Source: Verrucomicrobiales bacterium (GTDB taxonomy: Bacteria > Verrucomicrobiota > Verrucomicrobiia > Verrucomicrobiales > SLCJ01). From it: DNA of 64,000 bases. Where the stretch lies: NCBI GenBank assembly GCA_024636835.1, contig JAGXGH010000090.1, forward strand, positions 1-64,000, written 5' to 3'. The notes under the pieces are model-generated. The model was not told the origin of the DNA. It saw nothing but the letters and a program-made list of their open reading frames with translations, and made no database searches. Each line of letters begins with the position of its first letter. Position 1 is the stretch's first letter. Below, one piece after another: positions 6,884 to 63,455 of the stretch. The position numbers and the translations under genes were made by a program.

Positions 6884-6910
6884 GTATTCCTGCCAAATCT
6901 TACGCCCCTA

Positions 6911-7012
6911 ATACCGGTTTGGAATAAAATATGACTATTCGCCGCGCACAAATGGCTCACGATCAGCAAACTTCGCGTTCGCTCGCGTCAGACCAATACC
7001 AAGATTTGGTAT
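6911..7012 (+). repeat. Dispersed 102-bp element, copy A
   Basis: Starts ATACCGGTTTGG and ends AATACCAAGATTTGGTAT, whose last 17 bases form a 7-bp palindrome with a 3-base loop. Between them runs the shared core TATGACTATTCGCCGCGC, then a GGCTCACGATCA-like block, then a variable GC-rich part and CGTCAGA. Three more copies lie at 55219-55321, 61629-61727 and 63352-63455. The ends ATACC/GGTAT are inverted. This copy fills the divergent spacer upstream of the DnaJ gene, so it may carry or disturb promoters. Confidence 0.85.
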
Positions 7013-7089
7013 AAAATCTTTCGAAAAGGAAAACTTGAGACTGACAAAAGCCAGATCGTATTACCTATTGATAACGACAGCTATTTCCC

Positions 7090-55100: not shown

Positions 55101-55218
55101 ATCTACGAAAAGGCTCAAAGAGAAGCGCTTCATCGAACCAACTCACTGAGGCCGTCAGTCTGTCCTGAGTATTAACCACTCTGAATGGAGTGTCCATCTT
55201 CCGGTTCGAGGTAATGTC

Positions 55219-55321
55219 ATACCGGTTGCGAACAAAAATATGACTATTCGCCGCGCATAAGCAGCTCATGATCAACCAACAAAACGCCCTATCGCATCAG
55301 ATCAATACCAAGATTTGGTAT
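55219..55321 (+). repeat. Dispersed 103-bp element, copy B
   Basis: Starts ATACCGGTTGCG, contains TATGACTATTCGCCGCGC and CAGCTCATGATCA, and ends AATACCAAGATTTGGTAT. Its final T is also the first base of the stop codon (read on the minus strand as the last base of TGA) of the 932-residue protein gene. It is in the same orientation as copy A and opposite to copies C and D. Confidence 0.9.
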
Positions 55322-58119
55322 CACTTCAACTTCTCAGCCGTCCAATAACATGGATGCTGATGCAGCCAACGTAACGCTTGCCTGGTCTTTTCATCATCGA
55401 TGCTGTCGATCCATTCCTCCATCGCATCGGGATCGACCACTGCCCATTTTCGCAAACACCCAAATGTCCGGTCACCGAGGCTATCATCCGAGTTTGTATC
55501 CGACTCGCCACCAGCCCACCCCTTCAACACTTCAGAGGGATCATCACCGTGTTCGCGCAGCAATGATTCGGCACCGATCCGCGCGGCCAGGCCAACATCG
55601 TAGCTCTCCAACTCTTCCAGAAAATCACTCACATGATCCCTGTAGAACGTTTTCTCTCTTCCACGCTTCAACACATATTCTCCGAGCGCGACCGCAGTCG
55701 CTTTCCTTCCATAACCGCTAATAGATCCTTCTAGCAATTCTCCAAACTGCCAATCCAGATTTTTCTGATCGTCTCCGTAGCGAGTGAGAATAAACTCGAC
55801 AGTTTCCGCCGATTCCGGAAACCGTCCAAGTATCACCTCGATCAGATCTAAGGGAGCCTCCTCTTTTTTCTCCAGTTTATCGGCCAGCATATCAAACAAG
55901 TTTTCAGCGGATAATTCAAAGAGCTTGTCGACTTCCATAAGGAAGTCAGGGTCCTGGGATTTCCATATTTCGTCGATTCTAGAATCCTTCCCGCCTGGAC
56001 GTTCCAGCCTACGAGGCCAAATCGAATATTTGGGCATCTTTGGCATCTCAGGCTCCTCGTATTCCCGATACGGATCGATTTGAAAATTCCACCATAGGTT
56101 GTAGCACCAGACAGAGAATGCTTCACCGAACGACCTCAATTTCACTGGGACGGACGGATCATCCCCTCTTTCTAGAAACGTTCTGAGGCGGTAGACCCAA
56201 TCGCCCCAAAAGTATGAGCGAATCCCGTCGTCTAGAACCTTTGGCGAGAACATTGGTTCCTCATTCCAGCCATTGATGTAAATACTATCGACCGAACGTG
56301 GAGCCTCGGCATAAGCAAACTTCAATGCGGCAAACAAATCACGTTCTGCCCATAGCTGCATAACATTCTGCCACACATCCACCGTCTGGAGACCACAGTG
56401 TTCCGCATAATATACCAACAGCGGACCGAAGTGACTCACTTCGACCAGTTTCATCATCTCATAAAACTTCCTTCGCCGTTCATCACGTTCCGGCTCGGAT
56501 AAAAACCAATCAATCCACAACTTCTCCTTCACCAAACTATCCGGCAAAGTCGCGATCCATTCCGCTTCCGACTTCAACCGCTCTGAACCCATCGCGTTGT
56601 AATCCATCCTACCTTGTGGGTGCTTAGCCATCCACTGCAAGGCGGCGGAAACCTCAGCATCATCAAAGGCCTTTGCCCATGCTTCCATCTTCTCCGGTTC
56701 CGTGGCCGCCCATTTCCGCAGACATCCGAATGTCCTACCATCCATGGACTCCGTCTGTGGGTCTGCTTGCCCGCTCCATACCTCGATCAGCTGTTCTTTT
56801 GATCGAAACTTAGCACGATGAGCCAACAACCAATCGACACCGAAACGCGCCGCCTCACCGCAATCGATGTCGCCGTAGAACTCCATCACCACAAGCATAC
56901 CCTCGGAGTGAAGTTGCCCTGCTCTCCCGAATTCTAAAATAAGACTCCGTCCAATGTTCACATGACTAGGGGTTTCACAGTATCCCATTAGATTTCGAAA
57001 TGCTTCGCTAAGCTCGTAGTCATTATCGAGTTCAATCACAAATTTCAGTGCGGCTTCGGGATTCTGCTCAAACCAATAACGCACTAAATCCAAGTCATAT
57101 CGCTCCAAACCTCGACGACGGCTCCACTCATCAAAGACAGCAGACCTCAAGCGCTTATCAAGGCAACCAAACCCGACTAAAAGTTCGTCCGTTCCAGAAC
57201 CGTCATCGTTTAGCAATTCGTCGACTTGCTTACCCTTGAGCCAATCAAAAAACGCTTTCGGCGCACACCTTGCCCAAGTTTCGGCATCGCAGTAATCTTC
57301 AGACACCGCCTTCGCCACTTCGTTCGGATGATCACGCACCCGCTCTCGTAGAGCAAGTCGCATCACCGCCCAATGATGTCCGCTGGACTCCTCGGTGAAG
57401 AGTGTCGAGAACAGCGCTTCGTCACGCGATTTAACTTTCTCCAGTAACGACCAATCCATCACCGGCTCGTCGGCGATGGCATCTTCCTTCGGCAGCAACC
57501 AAGCTTTGATTGCCGCATTCGGAGCGTCGCTCCCCGTCATTTCCTTGAACTCCTCGGGCGTCATAGACATCCACCAGCGAGTGAAGTAGATCTTCGCCCA
57601 TTCGAATCGCTCATCGCTCGATAGTCCCGCCTTATTTAGCCCAGCCAAAAAGGCATCCAAGTCTCGGTGTTCCACCCAAAATGGCATCGTCGCCAGAGCC
57701 TCGCGATCCGATGGACCTATCATTGGCTCATTCCAGCTATTAAAAAAATGTCGTGAACACGCAGTCTTGAAATATGGCCAAATGAACTTCCATGCCATCT
57801 CCGGATCACGCTCAGCGAAAATCTCTAGAATATCGCGGAAGTAGTATTGAACCGTCATTTGCCGATCATCCAATTCACCAAGCAGATTGAACGCAGTCTC
57901 AAACTTCTCGATAGGAATCGCCGTGAAATAGCCACGGACTAGCTCTTTTCGGAGTTGGTCTTCCGGCTCATTCAAGATCGCCGTTACAACCACCTTCGGA
58001 TCGTCCGAAAGCAGATCCTCCAATGACGGTGTATACCACCATGAACCGGGGCTACGATCAGGCTCGGCGGCGCTCGAAAGCGCCACACAGGTTAGTAGAA
58101 CAAATAAACAACGGATCAT
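55321..58119 (-). CDS. Large exported helical protein with an internal duplication
   Basis: 932 residues with a signal peptide (MIRCLFVLLTCVALSSA) and a Trp-, Asp- and Glu-rich helical body that I cannot place in a family. Two halves are related: GRTFGCLRKWAATEPEKMEAW (461) and DRTFGCLRKWAVVDPDAMEEW (883), FNSWNEPM (126) and INGWNEEPM (615), FAERDPEMAWKF (101) and WAERDLFAALKF (590). The repeated blocks suggest a helical-repeat solenoid made by duplication. It is followed 30 bases upstream by the DUF2330 gene on the same strand, so they are probably co-transcribed. Confidence 0.78.
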   Translation of the reverse strand: MIRCLFVLLTCVALSSAAEPDRSPGSWWYTPSLEDLLSDDPKVVVTAILNEPEDQLRKELVRGYFTAIPIEKFETAFNLLGELDDRQMTVQYYFRDILEIFAERDPEMAWKFIWPYFKTACSRHFFNSWNEPMIGPSDREALATMPFWVEHRDLDAFLAGLNKAGLSSDERFEWAKIYFTRWWMSMTPEEFKEMTGSDAPNAAIKAWLLPKEDAIADEPVMDWSLLEKVKSRDEALFSTLFTEESSGHHWAVMRLALRERVRDHPNEVAKAVSEDYCDAETWARCAPKAFFDWLKGKQVDELLNDDGSGTDELLVGFGCLDKRLRSAVFDEWSRRRGLERYDLDLVRYWFEQNPEAALKFVIELDNDYELSEAFRNLMGYCETPSHVNIGRSLILEFGRAGQLHSEGMLVVMEFYGDIDCGEAARFGVDWLLAHRAKFRSKEQLIEVWSGQADPQTESMDGRTFGCLRKWAATEPEKMEAWAKAFDDAEVSAALQWMAKHPQGRMDYNAMGSERLKSEAEWIATLPDSLVKEKLWIDWFLSEPERDERRRKFYEMMKLVEVSHFGPLLVYYAEHCGLQTVDVWQNVMQLWAERDLFAALKFAYAEAPRSVDSIYINGWNEEPMFSPKVLDDGIRSYFWGDWVYRLRTFLERGDDPSVPVKLRSFGEAFSVWCYNLWWNFQIDPYREYEEPEMPKMPKYSIWPRRLERPGGKDSRIDEIWKSQDPDFLMEVDKLFELSAENLFDMLADKLEKKEEAPLDLIEVILGRFPESAETVEFILTRYGDDQKNLDWQFGELLEGSISGYGRKATAVALGEYVLKRGREKTFYRDHVSDFLEELESYDVGLAARIGAESLLREHGDDPSEVLKGWAGGESDTNSDDSLGDRTFGCLRKWAVVDPDAMEEWIDSIDDEKTRQALRWLHQHPCYWTAEKLK

Positions 58120-61600: not shown

Positions 61601-61628
61601 CCGTCTCCCCAAGACACTACCGCTACTG

Positions 61629-61727
61629 ACACCAAATCTTGGTATTGATGTGACGCGCGCGGTCTCCGATTCGCTTGATCGAGAGCTGCTTGTGCACGGC
61701 GAGTAGTTATATTTTTTTAAGCGGTAT
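61629..61727 (-). repeat. Dispersed element, copy C
   Basis: Reverse orientation of copies A and B: on the plus strand it begins ACACCAAATCTTGGTATTGA and ends GCGGTAT; 99 bases. The core reads GAGCTGCTTGTGCACGGCGA then GTAGTTATATTTTTTT. It lies just past the alcohol dehydrogenase stop, before its terminator. Confidence 0.85.
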
Positions 61728-61768
61728 GACTGAAAGGACGCATTGGACGTCAAATAAACTCCACATAG

Positions 61769-63351: not shown

Positions 63352-63455
63352 ATGCCAAATCTTGGTATTGATCTGACGCAAGTCGGCGTCGTGTTGGTTA
63401 ACACGTGAGCCGCTGGTGCGCGGTGAATAGTCATTTTTTTATTCGGAATCGGTAT
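63352..63455 (-). repeat. Dispersed element, copy D
   Basis: Plus-strand start ATGCCAAATCTTGGTATTGA and end TCGGTAT; 104 bases. Read on the minus strand it contains AATGACTATTCACCGCGCAC, matching the core of copies A and B. It follows the arsR-type gene. It has one substitution in the palindrome arm (ATGCC in place of ATACC). Confidence 0.85.

Follow-up and report, generated by a model that had tools for sequence, protein, structure and literature searches.

The dispersed repeat of about 100 bp described here is very probably a non-autonomous, MITE-like DNA transposable element that duplicates a TNA target site and is over-represented at the stop codons of genes, probably through a preference for gene ends to which survival after insertion adds. 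It forms a high-copy sequence family that is kept out of coding sequence, and genes that carry it at their stop codons were found to end at nearly the same residue as orthologues in relatives without the element. The window, that is the whole stretch of 64,000 nucleotides analysed, contains four copies that align as one family, as a preliminary description had proposed, two of them on each strand; counts as high as those observed in the window for the core motif and for the palindromic end were reached by none of 100 shuffles. Three copies lie after gene ends, as also stated there, the exception being copy 1, which is located between divergent genes, upstream of dnaJ; copy 2 is a case of insertion at a stop codon (Table 1), and the gene concerned has no Pfam match. 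The exact boundary of the ends, given earlier as ATACC...GGTAT, has to be moved, since the true tips are TACC...GGTA. With the tips set in this way, TNA is found on both flanks and a 3-bp duplication appears. The earlier statement that there was no target-site duplication was thus mistaken: the duplication was hidden by the longer definition because its outer A and T are part of the TNA target. It is perfect in copies 1-3 (TAA/TAA, TCA/TCA and TGA/TGA) and has been lost only in copy 4.

Table 1. Copies of the element in the window, their flanking duplications and the gene adjoined by copy 2.
Feature	Position	Strand	Remarks
Copy 1	6912..7011	+	100 bp, TACC...GGTA; nhmmer 97 bits
Copy 1, left target-site duplication (TAA)	6909..6911		
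Copy 1, right target-site duplication (TAA)	7012..7014		
Copy 2	55220..55320	+	101 bp; right end adjoins stop codon
Copy 2, left target-site duplication (TCA)	55217..55219		
Copy 2, right target-site duplication (TCA)	55321..55323	-	TGA stop of gene 55321-58119 (-)
Gene having the copy 2 target site as its stop codon	55321..58119	-	932 aa from first start codon
Copy 3	61630..61726	-	97 bp, diverged
Copy 3, target-site duplication (TGA)	61627..61629		
Copy 3, target-site duplication (TGA)	61727..61729		
Copy 4	63353..63454	-	102 bp; flanks TTA vs TCC, duplication lost

The family is not limited to the window but is spread over the whole genome (5.54 Mb, 146 contigs), where the right end, CAGATCAATACCAAGATTTGGTAT, has 89 + 79 matches with at most 3 mismatches, about 168 in total; read backwards as a control, the same sequence has no match genome-wide. 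The nearest named relatives of a protein encoded in the window belong to the Verrucomicrobiota. The right end was found in none of 56 relatives, of which one is a member of the same genus, and in none of 387 other genomes sampled from the phylum, and the exact 21-mer has no match in viral and genome collections, which may leave out records close to the genome itself. Profile searches were made in a sample of 1.87 Mb, consisting of 100 stretches around known copies plus the window; these stretches were picked because they carry copies, a choice that bears on absolute densities but leaves untouched the contrast between stop and non-stop TNA sites within the stretches. The searches gave 164 matches, 116 of which are full length, while 11 cover the inner part only and mostly represent a separate hairpin repeat. 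The copies have a mean identity of 85% to the consensus and are mostly 97-139 bp long, the short form of about 101 bp having the consensus TACCGGTTTCGAATAAAAACATGACTATTCGCCGCGCACAAGTAGCTCACGATCAACCAACTCCACGCCCGCTCGCGTCAGATCAATACCAAGATTTGGTA. At both ends the tip TACC is followed by 17 bases and then by TGAC, which occurs at this exact spacing (positions 22-25 from the tip) in 64/116 left ends and 95/116 right ends; the perfect inverted repeat TACC/GGTA is just 4 bp long, and the ends differ apart from the equally spaced TGAC. A possible short ORF (ATG ACT ATT CGC CGC ... GTA TNA) has an in-frame stop in 18 of 85 copies and was therefore treated as not coding.

The duplication seen in the window is general. 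Of the 59 copies whose tips are intact, 43 have the same N in the left and the right TNA, compared with a mean of 16.7 and a maximum of 28 in 2000 shuffling trials. Such a 3-bp TNA duplication points to a non-autonomous MITE-like element mobilized by a transposase that makes 3-bp staggered cuts at TNA. The MITE-like reading offered from the four copies is supported by the non-coding character of the element, its about 168 copies, its two orientations, its dispersal, its short (4-bp) inverted ends and its target-site duplication; like other MITEs, it is shorter than 600 bp, has no transposase ORF and exists in many copies. Any TNA reads as TAA or TGA on one strand.

Gene ends were taken from the predictions of a simple home-made gene caller. 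None of the 116 full copies is situated inside a gene, and the 114 with genes on both sides are distributed between convergent (39), tandem (64) and divergent (11) neighbours. In 38 of these 114 the element directly follows a stop codon and the adjoining TNA is that stop codon (20 TAA, 18 TGA), both copies of the duplication being still identical in 25 of the 38. Stop codons contribute 1077 TNA sites against 20,541 non-coding ones, or 5.0% of those available, so that about 6 such insertions are expected; the binomial probability of 38/114 is ~2e-21, and still ~1e-11 with the expectation doubled for missed genes. The density of copies per available TNA is 0.0415 at stop codons, 0.018 at +1 to +5 and 0.005-0.011 at +6 to +149, with the lowest value at +6 to +20.

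In principle these gene ends could have been made by the insertions themselves, longer genes having been truncated at the element, and a few copies do overlap predicted gene ends by more than 10 bp. We consider this explanation extremely unlikely. A duplicated stop codon is necessarily older than the insertion, and the carboxy ends encoded by the adjoining genes are natural ones, for instance ...GGLGLPGM and ...LLDQING, in proteins which, from our own reading of the sequences, we take to be YbaB-like and NuoB-like, respectively. The ends of 12 genes with stop-codon sites were searched in the two nearest relatives, the last three comparisons standing outside the count. Seven orthologues in the same-genus genome have their own stop 0-4 residues past the alignment, and these alignments reach the carboxy end of the protein in the element-bearing genome or come to within 5 residues of it; downstream of the seven orthologue stops the sequence is unrelated and the element absent. 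Two orthologues in a same-family genome follow the same pattern. Orthologues thus end at nearly the same residue without the element, which indicates that pre-existing stop codons were hit and the proteins left intact, and contradicts truncation for the same-genus genes tested.

A more serious rival, which concerns the targeting part alone and not the transposable-element part, is survivorship only: the element would insert at random into TNA, insertions into coding sequence, promoters, leaders and terminators would be purged, and silent stop sites would remain. We rate this account only a little below an even chance. It agrees with the lack of full copies within genes, with the avoidance of divergent regions (11/114) and with the density minimum lying at the expected terminator position, preceded by intermediate values at +1 to +5. 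However, the excess is larger in promoter-free convergent regions (Fisher odds ratio at stops 10.4, p = 2e-10) than in tandem regions (7.0, p = 7e-9), and the fraction of copies at stop codons does not rise with age (9/29, 13/29 and 6/29 from young to old copies). Stops are also over-used inside the same regions: when each copy was held to its own intergenic region, 35 were at stops versus 19.6 expected, and 0 of 20,000 simulations reached 35. This last test is conservative, because stop-site copies can occupy very short regions; its result would allow for an effect of no more than 1.8-fold, and survivorship therefore is still a serious contributor. The peak between convergent genes and the lack of growth with copy age favour targeting over survivorship but do not prove it, and these two patterns together with the within-region test favour a real gene-end preference, with survival adding to it. 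We thus think, inferring the cause from the pattern of insertions, that the transposition machinery prefers gene ends and that post-insertion survival increases the excess. Local sequence context was rejected as the cause of the stop preference, a position weight matrix built from non-stop insertions predicting just a 1.15-fold effect. That the machinery actively homes to gene stop codons (TAA/TGA), sparing the proteins, by means of a cue that the local DNA sequence does not supply is a tentative proposal which we would not call probable; such a cue could be, for instance, a coupling to transcription or translation termination.

Placement directly after stop codons, and after gene ends for three of the four copies in the window, is also what would be expected of a functional RNA element, namely a 3'-UTR terminator or regulator that selection has spread to gene ends. 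Effects on transcript ends had been suggested at the outset; they are possible by position, with which they are compatible, but the fold of the short form gives them no backing, shuffled sequences folding as well as the consensus on both strands (z -0.03 and 0.57). Across copies, the right-end hairpin has 3 compensatory changes against 86 broken pairs, so that sequence and not fold has been kept, as expected of a transposase-binding end. Stop-codon copies have their right end toward the gene in 25 cases and their left end in 13, which is not a significant preference (p = 0.07), and a comparison of the window with Rfam gave no match; the copies there are not part of any known ncRNA or CDS. An RNA element selected at gene ends is thus very unlikely.

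The transposable element that we favour would move as follows. A transposase supplied in trans, whose existence and binding to the TGAC motif we infer, would bind both ends (TACC, 17 bases, TGAC) and insert the element by a 3-bp staggered cut at TNA, and repair of the gaps would duplicate the TNA. If the TNA were the stop codon of a gene, both copies of the stop would survive with the protein unchanged, and the 3' untranslated region would now begin with the element.

Bacterial MITEs commonly occupy intergenic and 3'-UTR positions (PMC10969869; PMC5896051), and the element resembles them in being short, non-coding, high-copy and mostly intergenic, with a direct duplication and, as far as its 4-bp tips go, inverted ends (PMC10969869). 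QMITE2 of Coxiella is mainly located in 3' untranslated regions, but its duplications are 7-11 nt long and variable in sequence (PMC5896051), whereas the element has a fixed TNA duplication that is often the stop codon, and its partner IS was not found in the genome. The nearest precedent is that of the GTAG-tagged REPs, which are reported to supply a TAG stop codon often to flanking ORFs and which, like the element, are high in copy number and near gene 3' ends (PMC3733652). These REPs, however, are hairpins of 20-40 bp tied to RAYTs, and it is their own tag that provides the stop (PMC3733652), whereas here it is the host's target triplet, duplicated, and TAA or TGA but never TAG. The small mobile repeats of Haloquadratum are similar in their length (~110 bp), inverted ends, lack of a matching transposon and strong targeting, but they have no target duplication and their targets are other mobile elements, not stop codons (PMC3119063). 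A literature search, in which subscription journals were thinly covered, retrieved no account of transposable elements that preferentially have a stop codon as the target which they duplicate. If the targeting is real, this would be a transposon that spares genes by way of the one codon that can be duplicated harmlessly, and a natural lead for placing sequence immediately downstream of genes that stay intact. Under survivorship, too, some 40 precise stop-duplicating insertions in one genome offer a clean system for telling target choice apart from selection, which is usually left undecided for intergenic repeats, and annotators gain an exact definition of the element ends.

The driving transposase had been placed outside the window, and profiles of five families were searched genome-wide in the assembly, which is 93% complete; transposase genes were found, but none with matching ends. 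Y1_Tnp has 24 loci (L031-L054, on G000:C116, C92, C126, C80, C110, C64, C18 and other contigs), several of which encode full-length RAYT-like proteins of ~320-370 aa; DDE_Tnp_1 and rve have 3 loci each, the one DDE_Tnp_1 locus that was scanned carrying a DUF4372 domain, and the IS5-type profiles DDE_Tnp_4 and DDE_Tnp_1_2 have 0 matches genome-wide. The IS1031 group of the IS5 family also makes a 3-bp TNA target-site duplication, but its ends start with GAG and those of the element with TACC, and neither IS5-type profile found a transposase in the genome. No DDE_Tnp_1 or rve locus is flanked by TNA-TACC...GGTA-TNA, and a DDE partner was rejected. Element-like end pairs 0.5-6 kb apart in the 1.87 Mb proved to be chance sites or two separate copies only, and no partial copies with a common inner sequence, such as might be left over from a parent element, were found there. 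The partner could have disappeared from the genome, be encoded in the fraction that the assembly lacks, or match in the outermost bases only. A separate transposon occupies positions 1-1451 of the window, with inverted ends CACAGTCATCCCATAGG...CCTATGGGATGACTGTG and a 424-aa transposase inside (DDE_Tnp_1 + DUF4372); about 106 bp resembling its left end are also present within a truncated copy of the element that stands beside a Y1 transposase gene at L040.

The abundance of Y1_Tnp loci, the palindromic right end and the relationship between the hairpin of a long form and a free-standing repeat of the same genome would suit a REP/REPIN-type element that depends for its movement on a RAYT (Y1 tyrosine transposase), a reading which for the whole element is very unlikely and is refuted by the clear 3-bp duplication. 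IS200-type enzymes are not known to make a target-site duplication, nor are the IS200/IS605-derived palindrome elements (PATEs) known to have one; its presence here argues against IS200/RAYT-type movement and sets the element apart from the PATEs. Elements of the IS605 type have no target duplication (PMC3119063). None of the 24 Y1_Tnp loci is bracketed by element ends, and a RAYT partner was rejected; partial or full copies near a few of them (L033, L036, L040) look incidental. The REP-like label of the preliminary description is therefore unsupported for the whole, because of the duplication and because the element is not a simple hairpin: a REP or REPIN is a palindrome of 20-40 bp with a GTAG/CGTC tag, whereas this is an asymmetric unit of 101 bp with the tips TACC/GGTA and neither tag. 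A REP-like hairpin is confined to the long form, and the RAYT reading may hold for that inner hairpin alone.

This long form, of about 137 bp, contains the additional hairpin TCGCGTGCCGCGCAGCGGTTCTACGCGA, a free-standing relative of which, TCGCGTGCGGCGCAGCCGTTTTACGCGA, is dispersed in the same genome. The two differ by paired stem changes and have identical folds, which suggests that a REP was captured by the element. In several copies (L148 C9:23427-23564, L202, L221, L230) the middle of the long form carries a second, altered right-end motif, GATCAATACGAAGATTGGGTATCC, as if, judging from the sequence, the form were the product of fusion or nested insertion of two elements. The free-standing 28-bp hairpin is found, among other places, at L175:2532-2567, L165:8032-8065, L223:3336-3587 and L169:4319-4354, and is often flanked by CTCCATTCTCC; at L223 it is contained in a tandem duplication of ~209 bp.
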